Shown here one piece after another: positions 7,005 to 39,203 of a DNA stretch of 48,851 nucleotides. Within the stretch, counting starts at the first letter, position 1; each line of letters begins with the position of its first letter. This DNA is from a virus, in IMG/VR virus record IMGVR_UViG_3300020109_000035, positions 1-48,851 of that record; one strand, given 5' to 3'. The notes below the pieces were generated by a model. It did not search any database. It was not told the origin of the DNA and worked only from the letters and a program-made list of their open reading frames with translations. Position numbers and translations under genes: made by a program.

Positions 7005-7189
7005 CTGACCCGCACACCCCGCCGACCTGCCCACCCCACGACCCCGCCGGCCTCACCTGCCGCCGATGCGGCACCCCGCTCCCCACCTTCCGGAGCCCCC
7101 TCGGACCCCTCGCCCGCTGGCTGCTCGGCCTCCCCCCAGACCCCGGCACCCAGCGCGACTACGCCCTCGCCCGCAAGGCCTCCCAGTGA
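7001..7189 (+). CDS. Small zinc-finger-like protein (62 aa)
   Basis: GTGA overlap with the upstream gene. CPPHD near residue 10 and CRRCG near 20 form a possible C-x2-H/C-x2-C metal site. A short apolar segment (PLARWLLGLP) follows, and the end is ARKASQ, matching the tail of the preceding protein. It directly precedes the terminase small subunit with another GTGA overlap. Function unknown. Confidence 0.5.
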   Translation: MTDPHTPPTCPPHDPAGLTCRRCGTPLPTFRSPLGPLARWLLGLPPDPGTQRDYALARKASQ

Positions 7190-7767
7190 CCACCCCCACC
7201 AACCCTGGGGAAGCAACCCCGACCGGGAAGCGACCCAACGGCGCCGGCTCCACCGTGAAGGTCACCGCGGCCGAGAAGCGACGGCAGGCCGTCGAGCTCC
7301 GGAAGGCCGGCGCTACCTTCGAGGAGATCGCCGCGGCCCACGGTGCGGACGGGCGTCGTCTGTACTCGAACAAGGGCACCGCGTACCGGGCGGTCGAGCA
7401 GGCGCTCCGGGAAGCGGTGCGGGAACCGACCCGGGAACTGATCGAGTTGGAGACGCAACGCCTGGACCTGATGCTGCGGGCGCTGTGGCCCCAGGTGATC
7501 GCCGGGAAGCTCGGGGCGGTCGATCGGGCGCTGCGGGTGGCCGAGCGGCGCGCGCGGCTGCTGGGCCTGGACGGGCCCCAGGTCGTCCAGCATTCCGGCC
7601 CCGACGGCGGGCCGATCCCGGTCGACGTATCCGGCATGACCCCGGAGGAGAAGGCCGCGCGGCTGGCCGAACTGATCGCCGAGGCCCAGCGGCGGCTCAC
7701 CGCCGAGCAGAAGGCCGCCGCGCCGGCGGCCTCACCTGACACCCCGCCGTCCGGCGCGGGAGAGTGA
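7186..7767 (+). CDS. Terminase small subunit (DNA-binding, HTH)
   Basis: 193 aa. An N-terminal helix-turn-helix (RQAVELRKAGATFEEIAAAHG, about 31-51) is followed by a long charged helical region (AYRAVEQALREAVREPTRELI... RLDLMLRALW) and a helix containing RALRVAERRARLLGLDGP. That arrangement is typical of actinophage small terminases, which recognise the packaging site and regulate the large subunit. Small terminases usually lie just upstream of the large one. Here about 2.5 kb of small genes intervene, which is unusual but seen in other actinophages. An alternative is a general HTH regulator. Confidence 0.7.
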   Translation: MTTPTNPGEATPTGKRPNGAGSTVKVTAAEKRRQAVELRKAGATFEEIAAAHGADGRRLYSNKGTAYRAVEQALREAVREPTRELIELETQRLDLMLRALWPQVIAGKLGAVDRALRVAERRARLLGLDGPQVVQHSGPDGGPIPVDVSGMTPEEKAARLAELIAEAQRRLTAEQKAAAPAASPDTPPSGAGE

Positions 7768-27662: not shown

Positions 27663-27701
27663 CGAGAGGCCCCGCCGATCACCACTCGGCGGGGCCTCTC
27701 G
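27663..27701 (+). terminator. Perfect 16-bp terminator hairpin
   Basis: Arms 27663-27678 and 27686-27701 are exact reverse complements (CGAGAGGCCCCGCCGA arm) with a 7-nt loop. It isolates the upstream cassette from the capsid gene. No U-tract follows. Confidence 0.8.
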
Positions 27702-27901
27702 CGTGTCCTGGGGCGGTGCGGCCGTACCCCTACGGCCAACCCCGGGACGCGGGCACCCTTCGCACCCGCCCCCACGGTATGCGCGTCACAAGACCAGCAC
27801 CCGCCGAGGTCCGGCGCCGTGGGCTACCCTCTGCCCCGTAGCGACCGCTGGCTGTGGGCCGGGCGCTCGGCCGTCCCGAGTCCCCGCTAGGAGCCCCCGC
27901 C
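27702..27901 (+). promoter_or_regulatory. Capsid gene promoter and leader with 34-bp box (copy 1)
   Basis: TACCCT (27825-27830) is a TAnnnT -10 box. The 34-bp box at 27837-27870 (starts CGTAGCGACCGCTGGC, ends GGGCGCTCGG) is identical to 32505-32538. It continues into a small hairpin CTCGG/CCGAG (27866-27880), then TAGGAG 8 nt before the GTG at 27902. The first ~120 nt of this stretch hold nothing I recognise. Confidence 0.7.
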
Positions 27902-29677
27902 GTGAGCCTGTCGTCCCTCCCCCGCCGCCGTTCCGCCCTGCCCCGCGTCCGCCCGGACCTGGTCGGCCGCGCCTCGGTCGTGTTCGTCCCCCGCGACGAC
28001 GACCAGACCCCGATCGCGCTCCCCGAGGGCGAGGAGCTCGAGCAGACCTCGGCCGCCGACCTGGAGAAGATCCGGGACCGGGCCCGCGCCGAGATCGAGA
28101 AGATCAAGGCCAAGGACGACATCTCCGACGAGGACGTCGCCGAGGCCGAGCGCCTGGCCCAGGTGATGAAGGGCGCCAAGACCGAGGTCAAGCGCCGGGA
28201 GACCGCCGAGGAGGACCGGCGCAAGCGGCTGGACGCCGTCGACGTCGACGACGACGACCAGGACGGCGACGACGACGGCCAGGACGACCAGGACGACGAC
28301 GACCAGGACGGCGACGACGGCCAGGACGGCGACGACTCGGCCGACGCCGACGACTCCGCCCCGGCCGGCAAGGAGCCGGTCCTCGCCGGCGCCGACGGCG
28401 GCAAGCCAAAGACCGGCCGCGCCGCGCGCGCCGCCCGCCGACAGCAGGAGCCCAAGCCCCCGGCCCGCCGCACCGCGACGATCACCGCCGCGGCCGACGT
28501 GCCCGGGATGAAAGCCAACCACACGTTCGGCAACTTCACCGAGGTGGCCGAGGTGGCGAACCGCCGCCTCGCGTCCTACCCGTCCCGGCCGATGCCCTCG
28601 GCCAGCGGGCACTCCACCCGGCTCCAGCACGGCATCGCCCGGATCCGCCGGGACTTCGACGCCGACCTGATCGCCGACGTCAACGGCGACGACGTGCTCA
28701 CCTTCGCCGCCCAGGAGTCCCGGCTGCCCGGCGGCTCCCTGGTCGCCGCGGGCGGCTGGTGCGCGCCCTCGGAGACGCTGTACGACCTCACCGAGCTCGA
28801 GAGCGCCGACGGCCTGATCGACGTCCCCGAGGTCAACGCCCGCCGCGGCGGTATCCGGTTCACCCCGGGCCCGGACTACTCGGCGATCTACGCCGGGACC
28901 GGGTTCGCCCAGACCGAGGCCCAGGCGATCGCCGGCGAGACGAAGGACTGCTACCGGGTGCCCTGCCCGGACTTCGCCGAGGTGCGCGCCGAGGCCGTCG
29001 GGGTGTGCATCACCTCCGGGATCCTGCAGAACCACGCGTACCCCGAGCTCACCGCCCGGGTGACGCGCGGCGCGCTGATCGCCCACGCGCACAAGGTGAG
29101 CGCCAAGACGATCGCCAAGATGGTGGCCGGCTCCACCGCGGTGGCGCCCACGGCGCTGCTCGGGGCAACCGCGTCCCTGCTCTCGGCCGCCGAACTGGCC
29201 GCCCTGGACACCCGGTACCGCCACCGGATGCCGCTCACCGCGACGGTCGAGCAGGTGTACCCGCTGTTCGCCTACGCGCTGGTCCGGGCCGACCTCGCCC
29301 AGCGGTCCGGCGTCATGGCCCTGGACGTCACCGACGCCCAGATCCGCGGCTGGTTCGCCGAGCGGCAGATCCGGGCCCAGTTCGTCTACGACTGGCAGGA
29401 CACGGCGCTCGGCCAGGCCGTGCCCGCGGTGGCCCTGCCGGCGTCGACCCAGTTCCTCTCCTACCCGGCCGGGACGTGGGTCCGGGGCCTGGACGAGGTG
29501 ATCAACCTGGACACCGTGTACGACTCCGCCGGGCTGGTCGAGAACGACTACGTCGGCCTGTTCACCGAGGAGGCGCTGCTGGTCGCCAAGACCGGCCACG
29601 ACTCCCGCCGGTACACCGTCGCCACCCCGGCGAACGGTGCGACCTACCCGACCGCGGTGCCGGTGCCGGCCGCCTGA
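27902..29677 (+). CDS. Major capsid protein with N-terminal scaffold-like domain
   Basis: 591 aa. Residues ~45-110 form a charged helix (AADLEKIRDRARAEIEKIKAKDD...) and ~115-150 an almost pure Asp/Gln/Gly acidic tract, together resembling a fused scaffolding (delta) domain that the maturation protease would remove. From ~200 the HK97-type capsid body follows (NHTFGNFTEVAEVANRRL, SLVAAGGWCAPSETLYDL, an E-loop-like GGIRFTPGPDY, and late strands AQFVYDW and FLSYPAGTWVRG). GTG follows TAGGAG with 8-nt spacing. It has its own promoter/leader and terminator, fitting its need for very high expression. Confidence 0.88.
   Translation: MSLSSLPRRRSALPRVRPDLVGRASVVFVPRDDDQTPIALPEGEELEQTSAADLEKIRDRARAEIEKIKAKDDISDEDVAEAERLAQVMKGAKTEVKRRETAEEDRRKRLDAVDVDDDDQDGDDDGQDDQDDDDQDGDDGQDGDDSADADDSAPAGKEPVLAGADGGKPKTGRAARAARRQQEPKPPARRTATITAAADVPGMKANHTFGNFTEVAEVANRRLASYPSRPMPSASGHSTRLQHGIARIRRDFDADLIADVNGDDVLTFAAQESRLPGGSLVAAGGWCAPSETLYDLTELESADGLIDVPEVNARRGGIRFTPGPDYSAIYAGTGFAQTEAQAIAGETKDCYRVPCPDFAEVRAEAVGVCITSGILQNHAYPELTARVTRGALIAHAHKVSAKTIAKMVAGSTAVAPTALLGATASLLSAAELAALDTRYRHRMPLTATVEQVYPLFAYALVRADLAQRSGVMALDVTDAQIRGWFAERQIRAQFVYDWQDTALGQAVPAVALPASTQFLSYPAGTWVRGLDEVINLDTVYDSAGLVENDYVGLFTEEALLVAKTGHDSRRYTVATPANGATYPTAVPVPAA
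28240..28345 (+). repeat. Asp/Gln/Gly low-complexity tract in the capsid gene
   Basis: Repetitive GAC/CAG/GGC codons encode about 33 residues that are nearly all D, Q or G, between the helical scaffold-like domain and the capsid body. Such tracts are prone to repeat-length change. Confidence 0.75.
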
Positions 29678-29698
29678 TCGACCGAGATCCGACCAGTC

Positions 29699-29738
29699 CC
29701 GAGGGCCGGGTGAGCCGACCGGCTCACCCGGCCCTCGG
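29699..29738 (+). terminator. Perfect 18-bp terminator hairpin after the capsid gene
   Basis: Arms 29699-29716 and 29721-29738 are exact reverse complements (arm CCGAGGGCCGGGTGAGCC) with a GACC loop, 22 nt after the capsid stop and before a weak U-containing stretch (CCTGTCTCC). It is the strongest hairpin in the window and probably limits read-through of the abundant capsid mRNA. Confidence 0.85.
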
Positions 29739-29770
29739 CCTGTCTCCCCCTCCCGAGAGGAACCCCCGGC

Positions 29771-30619
29771 ATGACCTCCGCGATCTTCGCGCCGCCTGTC
29801 ACGATCACCGGCCCCACCCCGATGCCGACCGAGTTCGGGCTGTACTCGGTGGCGACCGTCGTCGACTCCAACGACGCGCACGCCCAGGGCGGCGTGCAGT
29901 ACGAGCCGCTGGGGTGCGGTGAGGTCGCCGCCGTCTCCGCCGCGTGCGGCACCGCCGGCGGCCCCGAGATGCCGGCGACGGTGGAACTGGACGCCGACCG
30001 GTTCGTGCGCTCCGTGGCGTTCACCGTCTACGCCGGCCCCTCGGCCGACCTGATCTCGCACCGCGCCGACGAGCTCAGCACCATGGCCCGCAACTGGCTG
30101 ACCCTCGGCGAGCAGCACGGCGCCGAGCGCGGGTTCTGGACCGGCGCCCCGCTGGTCGACGACGATTCCGCCGCGCTCCACCTCGCCGCCGGTGACGCCG
30201 TCGAGGTGCTGGCCGCCGACCCGGTCCCCGGGAAGTTGGCGCTCGGACTGCTGGAGGAAGCCCTCGGCGACCGCGTCCTCGGCCGCGGCGTGATCCACGT
30301 CCCCCGCGTGGCGTTCCCGTTCCTGCCCGACACCGCCGCCAACGGCGGCCGGATGCAGACCAAGCTCCGGACCGACCTCGCCGTCGGCACCGGGTACACC
30401 GGCAGCGCCCCCGACGGCACCGCGCGCGGCGCCGGCGAGGCGTGGCTGTACGGCACCGGCCCCGTCAAGATCACGCGGGGTGAGGTGTTCGACGTCGGCG
30501 GCACGGACGCGCGCCGGCTGCTGGACCGCTCCACCAACCGGATCGCCGTCCTGGCGGGCCGGATGCTCACCGTCACCTACGAGTGCGCCCTGGTGGGCGT
30601 GCGCGTCGCCCTGACCTGA
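29771..30619 (+). CDS. Head-associated structural protein of unknown type (282 aa)
   Basis: ATG after GAGAGGAACCCCCGGC. Soluble protein with a strand-rich N-terminus (FGLYSVATVVDSNDAHAQGGVQYEPLGCGEV), a Cys-containing loop, a central helix (ADLISHRADELSTMARNWLTLGEQHGAERGFW) and an alpha/beta C-terminus ending in RMLTVTYECALVGVRVAL. Position right after the major capsid gene is typical of a virion-associated protein in actinophages. Homology to a named family is not evident to me. Confidence 0.65.
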   Translation: MTSAIFAPPVTITGPTPMPTEFGLYSVATVVDSNDAHAQGGVQYEPLGCGEVAAVSAACGTAGGPEMPATVELDADRFVRSVAFTVYAGPSADLISHRADELSTMARNWLTLGEQHGAERGFWTGAPLVDDDSAALHLAAGDAVEVLAADPVPGKLALGLLEEALGDRVLGRGVIHVPRVAFPFLPDTAANGGRMQTKLRTDLAVGTGYTGSAPDGTARGAGEAWLYGTGPVKITRGEVFDVGGTDARRLLDRSTNRIAVLAGRMLTVTYECALVGVRVALT

Positions 30620-30638
30620 TCCGAGGAGATCCGCACCC

Positions 30639-31160
30639 ATGACCGAGAGCACGAGCACCACCCGCGAACCCGTCGAGGTCCACGTCGCCGGCGCCGACCA
30701 GCCCGAGGCGGCCCGGCTGCTGCTGGACGCCGCCAAGGCCACCGGGCACCCGGTGGAGTCCGTCGCCACGATCGCCGGCGGCTTCCTGGTGCCCTACGAG
30801 GTGGCGGTCGAGGCCGGCGCCGTCAAGGGCGAGCAGGTGACCCCCTCGGAGACCGAGATCGCCGCCCACCCGGAGACCACCGGCGCGGTCACCACCGCGG
30901 ACGGCGTCGAGCACGCCGGCGTCGTCCCCGCCTCGGCCGCCGTCGAGCAGCAGGACGACGTCGCCGCCGCCGGGATCGAGCAGCAGCAGCGCGACCAGGG
31001 CGCCGGCGACACCGAGCAGGGCGAGGACGCCGAGCAGGCCGACGACGTCCTCCGCGGTGAGGCCCTGGAGAAGGCGCTCAAGGACCGCGGCCTGTCCACG
31101 TCGGGCACCGCGGACGAGAAGCGCGCCCGGGTCGCCGCGCACGACGCCGCCCAGTCGTGA
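30639..31160 (+). CDS. Head-region protein with C-terminal SAP-like helix pair (173 aa)
   Basis: ATG after CCGAGGAGATCCGC. An N-terminal compact part (EVHVAGADQPEAARLLLDAAKATG, GFLVPYEVAVEAGAV) is followed by an acidic/Gln-rich linker and a C-terminal motif RGEALEKALKDRGL-STSGTADEKRARV. That last part matches the SAP fold (L-x3-L-x2-RGL-x3-G-x4-KRAR), usually a nucleic-acid-binding element. A closely similar tail ends the protein at 34581. It may contact DNA or be a head-tail assembly factor. Confidence 0.65.
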   Translation: MTESTSTTREPVEVHVAGADQPEAARLLLDAAKATGHPVESVATIAGGFLVPYEVAVEAGAVKGEQVTPSETEIAAHPETTGAVTTADGVEHAGVVPASAAVEQQDDVAAAGIEQQQRDQGAGDTEQGEDAEQADDVLRGEALEKALKDRGLSTSGTADEKRARVAAHDAAQS

Positions 31161-31828
31161 CCCGCCGCCGGCCGAGGGCCGTTCGTCCAGCCCTCGGCCG
31201 GTGGCTCGGCTGGGCCCGCCCCGGGGACTGGCACCCCGGGCGCACCAACGTGCCGTTCCTGATCATCCAACTGGCCGCCCTGTACCAAGCCGCCCTCCGC
31301 GGCCGGGACTACCTCACCCCGCGCGCCGGCGCCGTCGTCGACGCCGACGGCCTCGGCGTCGTCGAGCAGGCCGCCGCCCTCACCACCTGGGGCTGGCTGT
31401 TCTACGGCTCGGCCGCCGTCGTGCTGGTCGGCCTCGCCGGACGCTGGTCCCCGCTGGTGATCGCCGGCCACGCGTTCCTGTTCGCCTGGTATGGCGGGGT
31501 CGCCATAGGCCTGCTGCAGGCCCAGGGCTTCGACCTGTCGTGGCGCCTACTGCTCGGCGCGATCCTCTCCGGTCTGGGAACGTGGGTGATCCTGCGCCGG
31601 CGCGCACCCGGCGCGTCCGTCCGGCTACTGCTCGGAGTTCCGGGGATGCTGGTCGGGCAGGAGCTCATGGCCTCCGGGTTGGGCTCGGACTACCGAACGG
31701 GGACGGGTCTCATGGCCGCGGCGATCATCCACCTGACGCTGGCCGCCGGCACCTGGCTGCTGACCCAACGGCAGCGCCTCACCGCCCAGGTCGAGCGGGA
31801 GGTCGGCGTGGTGCTCCCCCGTGGCTGA
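31157..31828 (+). CDS. Multi-span membrane protein (223 aa)
   Basis: GTGA overlap. After a basic start (RRRPRAVRPALGRW) there are about five hydrophobic segments: FLIIQLAALYQAAL, WGWLFYGSAAVVLVGLAG, LVIAGHAFLFAWYGGVAIGLL, LLLGAILSGLGTWVIL and a last one near AAAIIHLTLAAGTWLL. Membrane proteins between head and tail genes are found in several actinophage groups; function unknown. GC3 is slightly lower than its neighbours in places (for example GTCGTGGCGCCTACTG), hinting at recent acquisition. Confidence 0.7.
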   Translation: MTRRRPRAVRPALGRWLGWARPGDWHPGRTNVPFLIIQLAALYQAALRGRDYLTPRAGAVVDADGLGVVEQAAALTTWGWLFYGSAAVVLVGLAGRWSPLVIAGHAFLFAWYGGVAIGLLQAQGFDLSWRLLLGAILSGLGTWVILRRRAPGASVRLLLGVPGMLVGQELMASGLGSDYRTGTGLMAAAIIHLTLAAGTWLLTQRQRLTAQVEREVGVVLPRG

Positions 31829-32471
31829 ACTGATCGCCGCGGCGGGCGAACTGGGCCCCTGGTTCCTGGCGCTGCTGCTGGTCGGCCTGTTCCTGGTGTA
31901 CGCCGCCGAGAAGATCGGCGGGAAGGACGGGCCGATCTCCCGGGTGCTGGCCTGGTTCTCCAACCGCGAACTGAACGCCCTACGCCGGCAGGGCGAGCTC
32001 GAGGCCGAGCGGCAGCGGATCGCCGCCCTGACCGAGTCCCGCGCGGTCCAGCGGTTCCGCCGCCGGCTGGCCGACGCCTACGACGAGATCGAGGAGCTCG
32101 AGGGCACCGTGGAGTGGCTGCTCCAGGACCGCAACGACCAGCGCCGGCGCGACCGCGCGCGCGGGCACTTCGACCGCGCCCTGGTCGACTGGTTCCAGCA
32201 GGTGATCCGCACCGTCGCCGAGGCCGCCCCCGGGACGCTGATCCCCGACCCGCCGCGCCCTCCGGAAGGCCTCGCCGAACTGCTGGTGATCGGCGACGAC
32301 CTGCCGCCCGAGGTGCGCCGGCCCCGACGGCGGGCCAACGTCCAGACCCGCCGGGAGGAGCTCGAGGCCGAGTGGTCCCAGGAGGACGAGGACGCGGTCG
32401 AGGCCGAGGCCGCCGCATCGGCCGCCGCCGCGCGCCGAGGTGGCCGGCGGCTGACCGATCGCCGCGCCTGA
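31821..32471 (+). CDS. Membrane-anchored coiled-coil protein (216 aa)
   Basis: GTG overlaps the previous gene by 8 nt. One N-terminal membrane helix (LGPWFLALLLVGLFLVYAAEKIGG, about 10-33) is followed by a long charged coiled coil (NRELNALRRQGELEAERQRIAALTES ... YDEIEELEGTVEWLLQDRNDQRRRDRA) and an acidic then basic tail. The topology places the coil in the cytoplasm. With the preceding multi-span protein it may form a membrane complex; unknown function. Confidence 0.65.
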   Translation: MAELIAAAGELGPWFLALLLVGLFLVYAAEKIGGKDGPISRVLAWFSNRELNALRRQGELEAERQRIAALTESRAVQRFRRRLADAYDEIEELEGTVEWLLQDRNDQRRRDRARGHFDRALVDWFQQVIRTVAEAAPGTLIPDPPRPPEGLAELLVIGDDLPPEVRRPRRRANVQTRREELEAEWSQEDEDAVEAEAAASAAAARRGGRRLTDRRA

Positions 32472-32567
32472 GCCGACCCGCGGGGCCGGGCGGTAGTCTG
32501 CCCGCGTAGCGACCGCTGGCTGTGGGCCGGGCGCTCGGTCCCCCCGAGATCCCCCAGGAGCGCCCAA
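32472..32567 (+). promoter_or_regulatory. Major tail protein promoter and leader with 34-bp box (copy 2)
   Basis: TAGTCT (32494-32499) is a TAnnnT -10 box. The box at 32505-32538 is identical over 34 bp to 27837-27870 and again forms a CTCGG/CCGAG hairpin (32534-32548). CAGGAG lies 7 nt before the GTG at 32568. Confidence 0.7.
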
Positions 32568-33269
32568 GTGCCCACGTCCAAGACCTTCGCCCCGATCCGC
32601 GGCCGTCGGATGCGGCTCACCCGCACCGACGAGTGCGGCGCCCCCGTGATCGGCCCCGCCTCCACCGGCGTCTCCAAGGGCTTCGTCTCGGTGGGCCTGT
32701 CGCTCCAGTACGAGGACGGGGAGACGATCCGCGTCCCCAACGCCGCCGGCGAGTTCGAGATCAACGAGATCCCCGACGCCCAGTTGGTCGGCGCGACCGT
32801 CACGCTCGGGTTCGTCGGCGTCCAGCCCGACTACCTGGCGATGATCACCAACTTCCCGACCGTGCTGGACTTCGAGGCCGCGGCCGTCGGGTTCTCCGCC
32901 GACGGCGGGGTGCCCGTCGTCGGCGGCTACGGCCTGGAGGTCTGGACCGACCTCGCCGGCGCCGGCGCGTGCGCGGACGGCGGCCGGGCCTGGGGCTACC
33001 TGCTGCTCCCCTACCTCCGCGGCGGCAAGATCTCGGACTTCACGATCGAGAACGGCGCCGCGAACTTCGAGGTCGTGAGCAGCACCCGGGAGGGTTCCCG
33101 CTGGGAGGAGGGCCCCTACGACGTCCAGGAGTCCGGCGCCGCGGTCAACGGCGTGTTCCCGGCCGGGCCGCTGCTCGAGCCGGTCGGCGAGCGGACCCAC
33201 TTCCGCCTGTTCACGACCCGCATCGCGCCGCCGGCGACCGTCGACGGCCTCACCGCGCTGGCGGCATGA
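32568..33269 (+). CDS. Major tail (tube) protein
   Basis: 233 aa, the typical size of a siphophage tube protein. Features include an N-terminal arm (TSKTFAPIRGRRMRLTRTDECG), a long run of beta strands (VSVGLSLQYEDGETIRVPN, LVGATVTLGFVGVQPDYLAMI, NFPTVLDFEAAAVGF) and a late strand region (LLLPYLRGGKISDFTIENGAANFEV). Tube proteins stack as hexamers around the tape measure. A private promoter with the same leader box as the capsid gene fits high-level late expression. Start codon is GTG after CAGGAG. Confidence 0.78.
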   Translation: MPTSKTFAPIRGRRMRLTRTDECGAPVIGPASTGVSKGFVSVGLSLQYEDGETIRVPNAAGEFEINEIPDAQLVGATVTLGFVGVQPDYLAMITNFPTVLDFEAAAVGFSADGGVPVVGGYGLEVWTDLAGAGACADGGRAWGYLLLPYLRGGKISDFTIENGAANFEVVSSTREGSRWEEGPYDVQESGAAVNGVFPAGPLLEPVGERTHFRLFTTRIAPPATVDGLTALAA

Positions 33270-34015
33270 CCGAGCCGGCGCCCCCGGGCCTGTTCGGCTG
33301 GGAGCCGGTCACCTCGGTGGCCGGCCCCGGCTGGGCTGAGGCGACCGAGGAGACCCGCGCCGCGGCCCAGCGGTGGGCCGTCGGGATCCTCTGGGCACTC
33401 TCGGGGCGCCGGTTCGGCCTGTTCGCGCACCGCATCGCCCCCTACGTCGCCCCGCGGCGGCTGAACGCCTACGACCAGCGCAACCGGTACGGGCCGCTGG
33501 CCGTCAACTACCGGGCCGGCGTCGCCCGCGCCGGCGGGTTCTGCTCGGCCAACGCGGTACGCCTCGGCCCGGTCCACGCCGTGACCGGCGTCCAGGTCGA
33601 CGGCGTCCCCCTGCCGGCTGAGGCCTGGCGGCTGGACCCCGACGGGACGCTGGTCCGCACCGACGGCGCCGGCTGGCCCGTCGGGCAGGACGTGTACGCC
33701 GCCTCCCCGCGGTGGCTGGTCGACGCCGTGCTCGGCGTCGCGCCCCCGGCCGCGGGCAACGTCGCAGCCGGCCGGTACGCCGGGGAGTGGGTGCGCGCCG
33801 CCGGCGGTGGCCGCTGCTCCCTGCCGGCGGGCGCCCGATCCATCGCCCGGCCCGGCCTCACCATCGAACTGCCCGACGCCGCGCTGCTCACCGAGAACGG
33901 CCGCACCGGCTCCCCCGAGGTCGACCGGTGGCTGGACACCGTCAACCCCGCGGGGCTCCCCGAGGCGGCCACGGTCTACTCCCCGGACCTCGCCCGCCAC
34001 CGGCTGCTCACGTGA
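33266..34015 (+). CDS. Putative head-to-tail connector/adaptor (249 aa)
   Basis: ATGA overlap with the major tail protein. N-terminal helices (EATEETRAAAQRWAVGILWALSGRRFG) followed by beta elements (AVRLGPVHAVTGVQVDGVPLP, WRLDPDGTLVRTDG, YAGEWVRAAGG) and a helical end resemble gp6/gp15-like head-tail adaptor organisation, where a helical bundle docks the portal. Length is larger than the smallest adaptors. Assignment rests on position and fold-like pattern. Confidence 0.5.
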   Translation: MTEPAPPGLFGWEPVTSVAGPGWAEATEETRAAAQRWAVGILWALSGRRFGLFAHRIAPYVAPRRLNAYDQRNRYGPLAVNYRAGVARAGGFCSANAVRLGPVHAVTGVQVDGVPLPAEAWRLDPDGTLVRTDGAGWPVGQDVYAASPRWLVDAVLGVAPPAAGNVAAGRYAGEWVRAAGGGRCSLPAGARSIARPGLTIELPDAALLTENGRTGSPEVDRWLDTVNPAGLPEAATVYSPDLARHRLLT

Positions 34016-34563
34016 CCGGCCCCCGGCGCTGCTCGGACCCGGTCGCCGAGCCCACCATGGTGGCGATGCTGGCCGCCCTCCGCGCCGTGTTCGCCGAGCA
34101 GGGCGAGGTCGACGAGACGCTGGTCCAGCCGTGCGAGTTCGAGCTCATGCCCGGCGCCGTCCCGGTCGTCGATCACGGCCTGGACTGCCGCGACAACTGC
34201 GAGGGCGTCGCGTGGGTCCGGCTGGTCGACGTCTCCCCGACCGACTGGGCCACCTTCCCCGGCCCGGTCGCCCGAGCCGCCCGCGGTGACCTGTCCTACG
34301 CCGTGACCTTGGAGGTCGGCGTGGCCCGGTGCGCGCCCGTCGGCTACACCGAGGGCGAGCGGTACTACCCGCCCACCCCCGACGAGCAGGCCGCGGCCAG
34401 CACCCGCGCCGCGATCGACGCCGCGATAGTCCGGCACACCATCCTCGAGCGGTTCCCCGAGGACAACGACGACGCCGGGGTCGCCCTCGGCGCGTACGGC
34501 CCGATCGGGCCCGAGGGCGACGTCGTCGGCGGCGCCACGTTCTGCACCGTGTTCGTCCCCTGA
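34012..34563 (+). CDS. Putative head-tail completion protein (183 aa)
   Basis: GTGA overlap. Helical start (MVAMLAALRAVFAEQGE), Cys-containing middle (DCRDNCEGVAWVRLVDV) and a beta-rich region (LSYAVTLEVGVARCAP), then a helix (STRAAIDAAIVRHTILERF) and a strand end (GGATFCTVFVP). Proteins of this pattern occupy the stopper/neck position in many actinophages. Family membership is not certain. Confidence 0.45.
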   Translation: MTGPRRCSDPVAEPTMVAMLAALRAVFAEQGEVDETLVQPCEFELMPGAVPVVDHGLDCRDNCEGVAWVRLVDVSPTDWATFPGPVARAARGDLSYAVTLEVGVARCAPVGYTEGERYYPPTPDEQAAASTRAAIDAAIVRHTILERFPEDNDDAGVALGAYGPIGPEGDVVGGATFCTVFVP

Positions 34564-34580
34564 TCCGAGGAGTCACCGCC

Positions 34581-34931
34581 ATGACCGAGATCCGCGCGCG
34601 CGTCGAGACGGGCATGATGGGCGCCGCCGTCGGCGACGTCGTCACCCTGGACGCCACCCCGCTGGTGCTGGCCGCCGTCCGCGACGGCCGGCTCACCGTG
34701 CTGGACCAGCCGGCACCCGAGCTCAAGGGCGAGGCCCTGGACCAGGCCCTCCGGGAGCGCGGCCTGTCCCTGTCCGGGACGGCCGACGAGAAGCGGGCCC
34801 GCCTCGCCGAGCACCCGCGGACCACCGAGGTGCCCGGCCTGCCCGCCGGCGGGGAAGCGCCCGGCGGGACGGCGATCCCGGACCCGGCGACCGTCGTCAC
34901 CCCGGCCGGCACCCCGGCGGGCACGCCCTGA
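34581..34931 (+). CDS. Head-tail region protein with SAP-like segment (116 aa)
   Basis: ATG after CGAGGAGTCACCGCC. Small beta N-terminus (TEIRARVETGMMGAAVGDVVTLDATPLVLAAV), then KGEALDQALRERGL-SLSGTADEKRARL, a SAP-like helix pair almost identical to the C-terminus of the protein at 30639, then a Pro/Gly/Thr-rich tail. The shared segment points to duplication or exchange within the structural module. Function unknown. Confidence 0.6.
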   Translation: MTEIRARVETGMMGAAVGDVVTLDATPLVLAAVRDGRLTVLDQPAPELKGEALDQALRERGLSLSGTADEKRARLAEHPRTTEVPGLPAGGEAPGGTAIPDPATVVTPAGTPAGTP

Positions 34932-34948
34932 CCGATCGGAGTTGACCG

Positions 34949-35377
34949 GTGGCTTCCGTCGCCCGCGTCCAACTGTCCGAGCAGGCCCTCCGGTCGGCCC
35001 TCACCGGGCCCACCGGCATGGTGACCCAGTACGTCGTGCGGACCACCCGGCAGATCACCAACCAGGCCAAGCTCTACGCCCCGGTCGACACCGGCAACCT
35101 GCGGGCGTCGATCACCTCGGCGGTCGAGGTCCAGGGCCTCCGAGTCGTCGGCCGGGTCGGCACCCCGGTGGAGTACGCGCTCGCCGTCCACGAGGGCCAG
35201 GACGCGCGCGCCGTCGTGGTCAAGGCCCACCAAGTGCGCGCGCACGCGGTCCGCGGGTCGGCCGGTCGAGCCGCCTACCGGGTCCGCGGGCACACCGTGG
35301 GCGCGCACACCCGGCAGCAGAAGGCCAAGCCGGGCCGGCCGTTCCTGCGCCGCGCCATGGAGGACGTGCTCCGGTAG
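34949..35377 (+). CDS. HK97 gp10-like neck/minor tail protein
   Basis: 142 aa with the hallmark of this family: TRQITNQAKLYAPVDTGNLRASI (APVDTGNLR at about 46-54), followed by VGRVGTPVEYALAVHEG and a basic C-terminus ending with FLRRAMEDVL. gp10-like proteins join the head-tail interface in siphophages. GTG start follows CGGAGTTGACC. The Arg/His-rich insert (VKAHQVRAHAVRGSAGRAAYRVRGH) is longer than usual. Confidence 0.8.
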   Translation: MASVARVQLSEQALRSALTGPTGMVTQYVVRTTRQITNQAKLYAPVDTGNLRASITSAVEVQGLRVVGRVGTPVEYALAVHEGQDARAVVVKAHQVRAHAVRGSAGRAAYRVRGHTVGAHTRQQKAKPGRPFLRRAMEDVLR

Positions 35378-35440
35378 CACGCCGTAGGCTGCTGGCGCCC
35401 CCTCTCGTGGAGAGACCGCCAACCGGACGAGGAGCCCCCG
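35378..35440 (+). promoter_or_regulatory. Possible promoter and degenerate SD block before the tail chaperones
   Basis: TAGGCT (35385-35390) fits a TAnnnT -10 box. TCTCGTGGAGAG (35403-35414) is a shortened copy of the recurrent SD block with no start codon after it. The functional SD is ACGAGGAG, 7 nt before ATG 35441. Confidence 0.4.
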
Positions 35441-35806
35441 ATGGTGTCCAGCGACCTGAACTTCACCACCACCCCCAAGACCCGGCCCGAGGCCGAGGGC
35501 GACGACGTCCCGGCGATCGAGCGCACGATCACGATCACGGTCGACGGCGTCGACTACCTGGTGAAGCGCCCCAAGGACGCGCTGATCGCCCGCCTGGGCC
35601 CGGCAACCCAGCGCCGCACCAACCCGCTGCTCAAGGTGTCGCTGGCTATGGACTTCCTCGGCGACTGCGTCCAGGAGCCGGGCCGCACGGTGCTGGTCGG
35701 CCGCCTGGAGGACGAGCACGACGACTTCGACGTCGAGGACGCGCTCCGGATCATCGAGCGGATCGCCGAGGAGTGGAAGCCGGCCGGCCGACGTAGCCGG
35801 CGGTGA
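35441..35806 (+). CDS. Tail assembly chaperone, first protein
   Basis: 121 aa, between the neck/minor tail genes and the tape measure, the standard site of the chaperone pair (lambda G/GT position). Sequence has a strand start (RTITITVDGVDYLVKRPKDALIARL), a helical body (NPLLKVSLAMDFLGDCV, VEDALRIIERIAEEW) and a basic end. Chaperones coat the tape measure before tube polymerisation. Its stop forms a GTGA overlap with the next gene. Confidence 0.65.
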   Translation: MVSSDLNFTTTPKTRPEAEGDDVPAIERTITITVDGVDYLVKRPKDALIARLGPATQRRTNPLLKVSLAMDFLGDCVQEPGRTVLVGRLEDEHDDFDVEDALRIIERIAEEWKPAGRRSRR

Positions 35807-36384
35807 GAGGCCCCCGCCGGGCGGGGGAGTGGAGGGACCACCTCGAGCAGGGCGGCGCGCTCCGCTTCGCTCTGGACGGGGAGCCGTACGAGATCCCGGC
35901 CCTGCCGGCGCGGGCGTGGCTGCTGGCCCACCTGGACGAGGATCCGCTGGCGATCTTCCCCGGCCTGCTGGCCGACGAGGACGACGTTGACGACCTGCTG
36001 GACGCCGTCGACGACGAGGACGACCCGCTGACCGCCCAGCGGTGCGTCGACCTGTCCCTGGCCCTGCTCGGGGAGGCCTCCGGCGGCTGGCGCTGGTGGG
36101 AAGCCGACCGGTTGGTGACGGTGGCGATCGCCAACTGGCCGATGCTGGACGGCCCGGCCGCGCGCCGCGGCGTCGACCTGCTGGCGCTGCCCTTCGACCG
36201 GTTCTGCTCCGCGGTCTATTCGTGGCGGGTCGAGCACGCTCCGGAGAAGGACCGGGACGAGTTCGACCGGTGGCTGACCATGGCCCCGGCCGGCGCGATC
36301 GACGTCGACGACGTCGACGACCGGCTGGCCGAGGAGGAGGCGGCGAGCTTCCTGGCGGTGGCTGGCGCGCTCGGCGCGGGGTGA
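35803..36384 (+). CDS. Tail assembly chaperone, second protein
   Basis: 193 aa starting at a GTG that overlaps the upstream stop. It is acidic (DEDDVDDLLDAVDDEDD) and helical, with Trp-rich helices (GGWRWWEADRLVTVAIANW) and a conserved-looking end (SAVYSWRVEHAPEKDRDEFDRWL) typical of the downstream chaperone product. In many siphophages this part is reached by -1 frameshifting. Here a stop at 35794-35796 in this frame and no clear slippery heptamer make reinitiation at GTGA more likely. Confidence 0.65.
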   Translation: MRGPRRAGEWRDHLEQGGALRFALDGEPYEIPALPARAWLLAHLDEDPLAIFPGLLADEDDVDDLLDAVDDEDDPLTAQRCVDLSLALLGEASGGWRWWEADRLVTVAIANWPMLDGPAARRGVDLLALPFDRFCSAVYSWRVEHAPEKDRDEFDRWLTMAPAGAIDVDDVDDRLAEEEAASFLAVAGALGAG

Positions 36385-36461
36385 TCGGCGCCGTCCGGCT
36401 ACTCTGAGCCCGCGACCGCTGGCTCTGGGCCGGGCGCCCGTCCTCCGGCCTAGGAGTGTCT
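36385..36461 (+). promoter_or_regulatory. Tape-measure promoter and leader box (copy 3)
   Basis: TACTCT (36400-36405) is a TAnnnT -10 box. The leader box at 36412-36439 shares 27 of 28 bases with the two other copies (single change in CTGGCTCTGGG). TAGGAG (36451-36456) is 5 nt before the GTG at 36462. Confidence 0.65.
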
Positions 36462-39203
36462 GTGGCGTCGTCGCTCGGCAAGGCGTGGGTCGAGGTCGAG
36501 GCCAACGCCGACAAGGTCGGCCCGGAGATCGAGGCCCGGTTCACCGCGGCCCTGTCGACGATCGTCGCCGCCGCCGAGGACACCTTCGAGGACGTCGGCG
36601 ACGAGTCCGCCGACGCGGCCCGGCTGATCGCCGAGGCGTTCGAGGAGAACGGCACCGAGGCCGCCCGCTCCCTGTCCCGCGTCGGCGACGCCATGGCCGA
36701 GACCGGGGACCGGATCACCTCCGGCGCCCAGCAGGCCGCGGCCGGCATGACCGACGCCCTGCGGGACGGCGCCAACCAGACCGACCAGGCCCTCGCCCCG
36801 ATGGTCGACGCCGCCGGGAAGGCCGGCGAGAAGGCCGGCGACAAGGCCGGGGAGGGCTTCGGCACCAAGGCCAAGGTGGCGATGGCCGCCGCCGGTGTCG
36901 CCGCCGGCGCGGCGCTCGGCGTCGCTCTGGCCGGCGCGATGGACGTCGAGCGCGCCAACGACAAGCTCGCCGCCCAGTTGGGGCTGACCGGGCCCCGCTC
37001 CGAGGAGATCGGCCGGGTCGCCGGCAGCCTGTACGCCAACGCCTACGGCGAGAGCCTCGAGGACGTCAACGGCGCGGTGGGCGCCGTCGTGTCGTCGATC
37101 GCTGGGATGCGGAACGCCTCCGCGGGTGACATCGAGGCGCTGACCGCGCGGGCCCTGGACTTCGCCGGCGCATTCGACCAGGACGTCACCGCCTCGGCGA
37201 ACACGGTCGGCGTGCTGATCCGCAACGGGCTGGCCCGGGATGGGGAGCAGGGCTTCGACCTGCTGACCCGCGCGTTCCAGAAGGTGCCCGCGGCGATGCG
37301 GGAGGAACTGCCCGCGATCCTGGACGAGTACGGGACCAACTTCCGCGCGCTCGGGTTCACCGGTGAGCAGGCGTTCGGCATCCTCACCGGCGCCGCCGAG
37401 GGTGGCGCGATCGTCCTGGACAAGGTCGGCGACTCCCTCAAGGAGTTGACGATCAACGGGATCGACCTCGGGAAGAACGGCGAGCTCTACGCCTCCCTGG
37501 GGCTGAACGCCGAGAAGATGGCGACCGCGATCGCCTCCGGCGGGCCGGCCGCCCAGGACGCCACCCAGAAGATCGCCAAGGCCCTGGCCGACATAGACGA
37601 CCCCGCCGAGCGGGCCACCGCGGCGATCCAGTTCTTCGGCACCCCGCTGGAGGATCTCTCGGTCGACCAGGTGCCGGCGTTCCTGGCGTCGATCGCCGGC
37701 GTCGGTGAGGGCATGACCGACGCGGCCGGCGCCGTCGACGGCCTCGGCACCACGCTGAACGACAACGCCGCGACCAACCTGGAATCCTTCAAACGGCAGG
37801 CCCAGCAGACCTTCGTCGACCTGATCGGCGGGCGGGCGCTGCCCTTCGTCTCCGACCTCGCCGGCACCCTGGCAACCCAGTTCGGGCCCGCCGTCCAGAC
37901 CGTCGGCGACTTCCTCACCGGGACGCTGATCCCCGCCCTGACCTCCGCGGCCGGGTGGATCGGCGACAACCAGACCGCGATCCTGATCGTCGCCGGCGTG
38001 ATCGCCGCCGTGTTCCTCCCGCACCTGGTGGCCCTCGGCATCCAGTACACGATCACCCAGGCCCAGGCCGTCGCCGCCTGGACCGTCCAGAAGGCCCAGG
38101 CGATCGCCGGCGCCGCGACGCACTCCCTGGCGGTGCTCGGCATGATCGGCCGGTGGGTGCTGCTCGGCGCCTCCGCCGTCGTCCAGGCCGCGATCGCCGT
38201 CGGCGCGTGGGTCGGGATGGGCGTCTCCGCCGTCGTCCAGGCCGCGATCGTCTCCGGGGCGTGGCTCGGCGCCCAGGCCCGCATGGCGGCGAGCATGGCC
38301 GTGACGGTGGCCGGCGTCGTCGGCGGGTGGGTGCTCATGGGCGCCCAGGCCATGCTCGGCGCCGCCCGCGTCGCCGCCGCCTGGCTTATCGCCATGGGCC
38401 CGATCGCCCTGGTCGTCGCCGCCGTCGTCGGGATCGTCGTCCTGATCGTCCAGAACTGGGAGACGATCAAGAACGCCACCGCGGCGGCGTTCCAGTTCGT
38501 CGTCGACAAGGTCCGCGGGGCCGTCGACTTCCTGGTCGGCCTGTTCCTGAACTTCACCCTGGTTGGCCTGATCATCCAGCACTGGGACACGATCAAGCGC
38601 GTGTTCTCCGACGGCGTCACCGGCGCGGTCAACTTCGTGCGCGACCTCCCGGGCCGCGTCGTCTCCGCGATCGGCAACCTGGGCAGCCTGCTGGCCGGCG
38701 CCGGCGGCGACCTGATCCGCGGGTTCATCAACGGGATCTCCAACGCCGCCGGCTTCGTCGGCGACGTCGGCCGGAACGTCGTCAACTCCATCGTCCGGTT
38801 CATCAACTCCAACGTGATCGACCGGATCAACAACCTGCTCGAGTTCAAGGTCGGCCCGCTCACGATCGACCCGCCCGACCTGCCGCGGATCCCCGCCCTG
38901 GCCGAGGGCGCGATCATCCGGCGGCCGACGCTGGCCCTGGTCGGCGAGGACGGGCCCGAGGTCGTCCTCCCCCTCTCCGCCCGCCGAGCCGGCCGGCGCG
39001 ACGCCCTCATGGACGCCGCCGGCCTCACCTCCGGCGGCGACGTCGCCGGCGCCGGGATCAACGTCACCTACGCCCCGGCGCTCACCGTGCCCCGCACCGC
39101 GTCGGCCGCCGAGGTGGCCGCCCTGGTCGGCCGCGACTTCGCCCGCTCGGTGCGCCTCGGCCTGCTGGACGGCTCTCTCGGCGACCTGGAGGCCGCGTCG
39201 TGA
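36462..39203 (+). CDS. Tape measure protein
   Basis: 913 aa, the second-longest gene. Helical, Ala-rich N-terminus (VEVEANADKVGPEIEARFTAALST), a basic/Lys-Gly stretch (GKAGEKAGDKAGEGFG), then a central domain with typical tape-measure wording (DVERANDKLAAQLGLTG; AAIQFFGTPLEDLSV), a hydrophobic middle with several membrane-like helices (NQTAILIVAGVIAAVFLPHLV; IALVVAAVVGIVVLIVQNW) and a beta/loop C-terminus (LVGEDGPEVVLPLS). It fixes tail length and may form a channel in the host membrane. GTG 36462 is chosen over 36456 because the SD ends at 36456. Confidence 0.9.
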   Translation: MASSLGKAWVEVEANADKVGPEIEARFTAALSTIVAAAEDTFEDVGDESADAARLIAEAFEENGTEAARSLSRVGDAMAETGDRITSGAQQAAAGMTDALRDGANQTDQALAPMVDAAGKAGEKAGDKAGEGFGTKAKVAMAAAGVAAGAALGVALAGAMDVERANDKLAAQLGLTGPRSEEIGRVAGSLYANAYGESLEDVNGAVGAVVSSIAGMRNASAGDIEALTARALDFAGAFDQDVTASANTVGVLIRNGLARDGEQGFDLLTRAFQKVPAAMREELPAILDEYGTNFRALGFTGEQAFGILTGAAEGGAIVLDKVGDSLKELTINGIDLGKNGELYASLGLNAEKMATAIASGGPAAQDATQKIAKALADIDDPAERATAAIQFFGTPLEDLSVDQVPAFLASIAGVGEGMTDAAGAVDGLGTTLNDNAATNLESFKRQAQQTFVDLIGGRALPFVSDLAGTLATQFGPAVQTVGDFLTGTLIPALTSAAGWIGDNQTAILIVAGVIAAVFLPHLVALGIQYTITQAQAVAAWTVQKAQAIAGAATHSLAVLGMIGRWVLLGASAVVQAAIAVGAWVGMGVSAVVQAAIVSGAWLGAQARMAASMAVTVAGVVGGWVLMGAQAMLGAARVAAAWLIAMGPIALVVAAVVGIVVLIVQNWETIKNATAAAFQFVVDKVRGAVDFLVGLFLNFTLVGLIIQHWDTIKRVFSDGVTGAVNFVRDLPGRVVSAIGNLGSLLAGAGGDLIRGFINGISNAAGFVGDVGRNVVNSIVRFINSNVIDRINNLLEFKVGPLTIDPPDLPRIPALAEGAIIRRPTLALVGEDGPEVVLPLSARRAGRRDALMDAAGLTSGGDVAGAGINVTYAPALTVPRTASAAEVAALVGRDFARSVRLGLLDGSLGDLEAAS

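Follow-up and report, generated by a model that had tools for sequence, protein, structure and literature searches.

A short hairpin encoded in the leaders of late genes was identified in a virus record of 48,851 bases (IMG/VR record IMGVR_UViG_3300020109_000035; 74.7% G+C), the whole of which is referred to here as the window. It stands before the major capsid, major tail and tape measure genes, and its conservation in other phages, together with paired base changes in its lower stem, indicates that it is very probably a real cis-acting hairpin of late mRNA. Members of the hairpin family occur in isolated phages of Gordonia, Streptomyces and Tsukamurella, and also in prophages from seven or more genera of actinobacteria. 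To our knowledge, little is known about late-gene control in phages of Actinobacteria, though very many such genomes have been annotated.

The box pattern containing the hairpin occurs three times in the window, always on the + strand, with 0 occurrences expected (100 dinucleotide shuffles). The original prediction, made from the sequence of the window, held that the boxes before the capsid and major tail genes are identical, and 27837-27870 and 32505-32538 do agree at all 34 nucleotides (nt). For the tape measure copy (36412-36439) it had counted 27 of 28 matching positions; a recount against the capsid copy gives 26 of 28. PHROGs confirm its gene assignments (phrog_777 for the major head, E 2.8e-161; phrog_792 for the major tail, 1.6e-66; tape measure, 4.6e-29). 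It also placed a GTG start with (T)AGGAG within 65 nt; counted from the first base of the box, the GTG codons come after 50-65 nt, each preceded by AGGAG. The distance of 13-17 nt that it gave from a TAnnnT motif to the box fits the start of the CTGG core, the box itself beginning 5-6 nt after TAnnnT. The hairpin it described, a downstream CTCGG/CCGAG arm, is present after the first two copies and is a local extra of the window phage; the conserved hairpin lies inside the box.

The leader is ordered as a TAnnnT box resembling a -10 element, about 17 nt to the core, the hairpin, and then a Shine-Dalgarno (SD) sequence and start codon. Across the family the hairpin is ~22-27 nt long and comprises a covarying lower stem (3-5 pairs), a GC bulge on the 5' side, an upper stem with the consensus U-G-(optional extra nt)-G-Y / R-C-C-G (UGGY/RCCG), and a loop of 5-6 nt that mostly ends in GG or GA (NNNGG type). 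The optional base of the upper stem is A, C or U. The upper closing pair is C-G, U-G or U-A, and C-G has changed to U-A in several lineages.

The evidence for pairing comes from covariation. A first covariance model (R1), built on a conserved six-pair stem, displayed little covariation because the regular expression had fixed the core, and was replaced by a model that includes the lower stem (R2). Near-duplicates were excluded from the alignments, which hold 43 of 46 instances (A1) and 65 of 74 (A2). In A2 (65 sequences, 63 distinct), both sides changed in six of nine pairs, and 63 cells were changed on both sides compared with 30.4 +/- 4.3 after shuffling, a value that 0 of 500 shuffles reached. 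The covariation score reached 0.338, whereas shuffled alignments scored 0.172 and slid versions at most 0.156. MAFFT misaligned the upper stem of six rows whose loops have 6 nt, and these count as unpaired at one pair. Kinship among sequences can inflate such counts, and tests with one copy per lineage were therefore run. Swapping the right flanks of 27 lineages gave a score of 9.44 vs 6.27 (0/5000 permutations), and shuffling the five 3' letters in a fixed geometry across 28 lineages gave 3.61 vs 2.29 pairs (0/5000) in the register left-1/right-0, the best of 20 tried. Two likely chance matches, L079:10664 and L085:12887, were excluded (70 to 68 copies) from these two tests and from the analysis of TAnnnT distance. 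Held-out prophage capsid leaders, picked by core and TAnnnT alone, formed 3.72 of 5 pairs vs 2.12 (0/5000). The 184 copies with an exact core, a pattern that fixes the two G's adjoining the core, formed 3.63 vs 2.16 pairs (0/2000), and their third lower pair was G-C in 164, A-U in 11, U-A in 3, G-U in 3 and unpaired in 3. The compensatory base changes of the lower stem strongly support a predicted RNA helix.

The position of the hairpin is equally regular. A TAnnnT motif lies 8-26 nt upstream of 153 of the 184 exact-core copies, compared with 59 of 4000 random positions, while an SD sequence and start codon follow within 130 nt in 154, and 132 copies lie between the two features. The distance from TAnnnT to the core has a median of 17 nt and a range of 10-24 (search range 8-24). 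Transcription begins about 7 nt after a -10 element, and a start at this distance from TAnnnT would place the hairpin within the first ~30 nt of the mRNA. Core and TAnnnT were found together in the capsid-leader regions of 33 of 66 relatives and on the opposite strand in 0 of 66; the 66 are those of 73 capsid relatives left after removal of the window twin and a close relative (L010, L011) and of the edge loci L017, L052, L071, L077 and L080. In prophages the corresponding figure was 32 of 60, with no core on the opposite strand (60 of 63 loci used; L118, in the model as L023, and L144 and L151, which start at a contig edge, were left out).

Model R2 gave 86 matches at E up to 1 over the 63 prophage loci (1.23 Mb), 80 of them on the strand of the late genes and 6 on its complement, and 37 of the 63 loci had a match at the capsid leader (table read by eye). 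In 11 whole bacterial genomes, with 150 candidates scored per genome and all but L140 of 12 loci covered, 54 of 58 matches (E <= 0.3) lay near a capsid gene (coordinates compared by eye), which points to a phage element rather than a host one. In the Streptomyces phage TurkishDelight, the tailspike gene gp33 is annotated with a TTG start that falls within a hairpin (L085 20558; record position 30557); this start is probably wrong, and the true one probably lies downstream.

The genes served were characterised from 110 downstream proteins (set A4), drawn at random from 147 open reading frames (ORFs); a further eight copies had no ORF. Among the PHROG families listed (25 of 30), those with a named function were, with their numbers of members, major head (12), major tail (8), minor tail (11 and 4), tail fibre (13), tape measure (~5) and endolysins (3, 2 and 2, possibly overlapping). 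No function is named for several others, of which the largest has 16 members, and all families of known role belong to head, tail or lysis. The same capsid family is encoded in 33 of the 46 records searched, window included, the remainder being mostly short contigs. Successive copies are separated by a median of 1219 nt, with 49 of 100 spacings under 1 kb and six tandem pairs, and there is often almost one promoter-like box and hairpin per late gene. Tandem double hairpins within one leader occur at L110 376-437, L069 6196-6251, and L085 8512-8578 and 12903-12956.

Conservation of the box before the same genes in relatives, a point on which the original prediction could have failed, was looked for and found. 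A near-identical contig and a more distant one both carry the box before capsid and tail genes, and in the distant relative, which has the same 34-nt box, the capsid and major tail proteins are 75% and 81% identical in amino acids. Many capsid relatives have their own repeated version, GCTGGC-loop-GGCCGGG, at the same place (68 of 73 relatives compared, those with enough upstream sequence). Among isolates, the Gordonia phage VanDeWege has four copies, before the capsid, major tail, tape measure and endolysin genes; EMoore has three (capsid, tail, endolysin), Brandonk123 two and Clawz one. TurkishDelight carries a CTGGTTnTGGGCCGGG version, partly in tandem, before its capsid, tail, chaperone, tape measure and minor tail genes. 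The Streptomyces phages TP1604, Xkcd426 and phiSAJS1 have copies before capsid and tail genes plus a third each, which in TP1604 and phiSAJS1 precedes the tape measure gene. One copy was found in the Tsukamurella phage TPA2 with model R2. The named hosts with a copy in prophage capsid leaders are Streptomyces, Microbispora, Rhodococcoides, Rhodococcus, Gordonia, Nocardia and Nonomuraea, to which R2 scans of phages and prophage loci add Tsukamurella.

The distribution has limits. Model R2 at E <= 0.02 found no copy in the Microbacterium phages OneinaGillian and Quhwah, the Arthrobacter phage SilentRX, the Mycobacterium phage Nigel or the Saccharomonospora phage PIS 136, and no mycobacterial prophage in the capsid-leader set had core and TAnnnT. 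Also against breadth, core and TAnnnT are missing from 28 of 60 prophage capsid leaders and 33 of 66 metagenomic ones. The exact-pattern search returned many contigs with a single match, true and chance matches being unsorted. The R1 scan produced two or more matches (G035:11337, G012:22930) that resemble chance hits in coding sequence, and a plasmid search with the window capsid leader gave four weak matches only. In the hairpin-free capsid relatives L024, L025, L026 and L038, a different repeat, CTACRTTAC..TGACTGTGAAGTGTCAA, includes a TTGAC/GTCAA palindrome; it occurs ~500 nt before the capsid match as well as at other places, and is possibly an operator or another type of late leader. An actinophage-type capsid gene and hairpin (L123 3831-3858) also occur in a contig binned as a Syntrophomonadaceae metagenome-assembled genome, reflecting either misbinning or a wider host range.

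As to function, we rank first a reading in which the hairpin would act as a sequence-specific 5' tag on each late message, and second an antitermination signal of the nut or put kind. A protein would recognise the tag by sequence, through upper stem, bulge and loop, and this putative binder would raise message yield by protecting the 5' end, promoting translation, or both. Coupling of the hairpin to its own promoter-like box suggests action near the 5' end or near the starting polymerase, and repetition for neighbouring genes, often less than 1 kb apart, fits a signal acting message by message better than a processive one, for which a single copy would do. Furthermore, loops were identical in 55% of 76 within-phage pairs vs 5% of 1100 between-phage pairs, and outer arms in 14% vs 3%; VanDeWege has the loop CGAGG and EMoore UAGGG, despite a common host strain. 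Since loops tend to be uniform within a phage and to differ between phages of the same host, a binder is more likely to be phage-encoded than host-encoded. Sequence conservation beyond the structural need of a simple shield, together with this likeness of loops within a phage, likewise favours recognition by a phage-borne factor. We give even chances to action per transcript, on stability or translation, and somewhat lower ones to the reading of the hairpin by a phage protein. More tentative still is the idea of a late RNA regulon in actinobacteriophages, in which a phage-encoded RNA-binding protein with a phage-specific loop preference would find one and the same hairpin at the start of each late message and so turn on all virion and lysis genes together once transcription is under way.

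Several observations weigh against a protein-read tag of this kind. Single-sequence folding gives ordinary energies for the window leaders (z 0.1 to 0.9), the minimum free energy (MFE) structures of the full capsid and tail leaders favour other pairings, and RNAalifold alone yields a weak consensus (-1.1 kcal/mol). No recognisable core with TAnnnT is present in 33 of 66 metagenomic capsid leaders, and loops are mixed within some phages (L011, L012, L013, TurkishDelight). Comparison of the ORFs of seven element-bearing and four element-free genomes yielded no clear candidate for a binder or for an N-like protein, although short arginine-rich peptides would escape such a comparison. The sole non-structural gene common to all seven element-bearing genomes, phrog_645, is also present in one of the four element-free phages.

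The family phrog_645 carries the label 'Rnase E'. Its product is a small helix-turn-helix-like protein (L083 1-531; L084 10602-11087; window ~7009-7767, + strand) that, judged by eye, looks like a small terminase subunit rather than 'Rnase E'. Because the MFE structure of the capsid leader pairs the box with the SD region, a switch that sequesters the SD sequence was considered. A peptide-coding upstream ORF was dropped by eye, since the change between 5-nt and 6-nt loops would break the reading frame. In the Streptomyces phage TP1604 (L114 8665-8715, 11870-11915), and similarly in L115 and L116, a long inverted repeat holds the -10 box in its loop, and the beginning of the leader forms the right arm of that repeat, so that read-through RNA from upstream could hide the leader hairpin.

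Under the antitermination reading, the nascent hairpin, alone or with a phage protein, would make RNA polymerase resist termination in the late region. The site is promoter-proximal, with TAnnnT 10-24 nt upstream of the core, its size and phage-specific loops are like those of lambda boxB, the tandem double hairpins of some leaders recall the two put stem-loops, and very strong terminator-like hairpins stand before and after the capsid gene. However, a processive signal is needed once per operon, whereas the copies are often less than 1 kb apart and nearly one per gene, and no conserved second box (boxA) was seen by eye between TAnnnT and hairpin in the leaders compared. We regard antitermination as the main rival, and as less probable than the tag. 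A generic 5'-terminal stem-loop of the ompA type, which would shield late mRNA from 5'-end-dependent decay with no specific binder, is improbable. The window hairpins do begin 6-10 nt after TAnnnT, near the expected 5' end, and the genes for capsid and major tail, the most abundant virion proteins, are regularly among the carriers; yet a shield would need neither an invariant UGG/CCG, bulge GC and loop-end GG across many genera nor tandem copies.

The original prediction proposed a shared 5' untranslated element of late genes, serving mRNA stability, a late transcription factor or antitermination. The shared element is strongly supported, being conserved before the same genes with a covarying lower stem. 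Paired changes, together with variation in the bulge and in the length of the loop, speak against a factor site that works at the DNA level alone. An operator or promoter element bound by a late activator just downstream of the -10 box, with the RNA fold a by-product, would explain the tight coupling to that box but not the compensatory changes, the loop of 5-6 nt or the optional upper-stem base, and is very unlikely. Chance, or recent duplication of a leader within one phage, to which the 34-nt identity of two window copies might point, can be dismissed because the same element with diverged flanks occurs in many unrelated contigs and isolates, and was already refuted by conservation.

The features of the window are collected in Table 1. 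The capsid gene is flanked on both sides by very strong G+C hairpins without a U run, which look like terminators or insulators.

Table 1. Late-gene leaders, the genes they precede and neighbouring hairpins in the window.
Feature	Position	Strand	Basis
TACCCT, -10-like box, capsid leader	27825..27830	+	sequence
Leader hairpin, capsid copy: GCG(A)CC-GC-UGGC-UGUGG-GCCG-GG-CGC	27841..27866	+	
Major capsid gene, phrog_777, GTG start	27902..29677	+	PHROG
TAGTCT, -10-like box, major-tail leader	32494..32499	+	sequence
Leader hairpin, major-tail copy, identical to capsid copy	32509..32534	+	
Major tail gene, phrog_792, GTG start	32568..33269	+	PHROG
TACTCT, -10-like box, tape-measure leader	36400..36405	+	sequence
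Leader hairpin, tape-measure copy, loop UCUGG	36412..36437	+	
Tape measure gene, GTG start	36462..39203	+	PHROG
Very strong 16-bp GC hairpin directly before capsid promoter; terminator-like, without U run	27663..27701	+	
Very strong 18-bp GC hairpin directly after capsid stop codon; terminator-like	29699..29738	+	

A conserved, covarying late-gene hairpin predicts promoters and true start codons, and delimits the late genes under common control in unannotated prophages of Streptomyces, Nocardia, Rhodococcus and other genera. It also provides a defined RNA with which to capture the factor reading it and could serve as an expression leader in actinobacterial hosts.

The element appears undescribed so far. 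Rfam 15 gave 0 matches at the gathering threshold in the window and in nine element loci. Relaxing the limit to E up to 5 brought five matches, all weak, unrelated and short of their gathering scores. No description was found in searches confined to the openly licensed PMC literature, and there is no mention of it in excerpts of a 2017 Gordonia phage comparison (PMC5559632), a 2026 Rhodococcus phage comparison (PMC13313380) or a survey of 104 motifs (PMC2864571). Excerpts of a study of cluster K mycobacteriophages describe the SAS, a 13-bp sequence (GGGATAGGAGCCC) at the ribosome-binding site of non-structural genes, and the ESAS, with little support for RNA pairing (PMC3203893). As far as these excerpts go, SAS and ESAS are likewise short, one-orientation repeats before many genes of an actinobacterial phage group, whereas the present element has another sequence, lies near the -10 box before virion and lysis genes, and covaries. 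In the cluster DR Gordonia phage CaiB, repeated intergenic blocks (GAGAGGAC, ACCCGCTC, GCGGGA, TGTTGT) are reported, with no hairpin described in the excerpts at hand (PMC9302106). These are again repeated leader motifs before several actinophage genes, but they differ from the present element in sequence, place and gene class.

By analogy, the element would work like a phage leader RNA signal, for which nut or put identity is a candidate only. Lambda boxB is a small, promoter-proximal hairpin of phage mRNA with a short stem and a 5-nt, phage-specific loop, and the present hairpin shares its size and position, its short stem and 5-nt loop, and the tendency of its loop to be phage-specific. N and NUT are mentioned in an excerpt of PMC4496710. 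Unlike lambda nut, the present element has one copy per late gene with its own TAnnnT, a 2-nt bulge and a conserved UGG/CCG. HK022 put RNA is a promoter-near leader structure of two stem-loops that suppresses termination with no phage protein, and some tandem copies here resemble its stem-loops; unlike put, most copies are a single small hairpin, repeated at many late genes. The stem-loops of ompA, papA and aprE stabilise mRNA at the 5' terminus and act largely by structure. They are named in titles of the reference list of PMC3997798. As in those messages, the stem-loop would sit at the 5' terminus of a plentiful transcript or close to it; unlike them, the present hairpin is conserved in sequence across phages and hosts.

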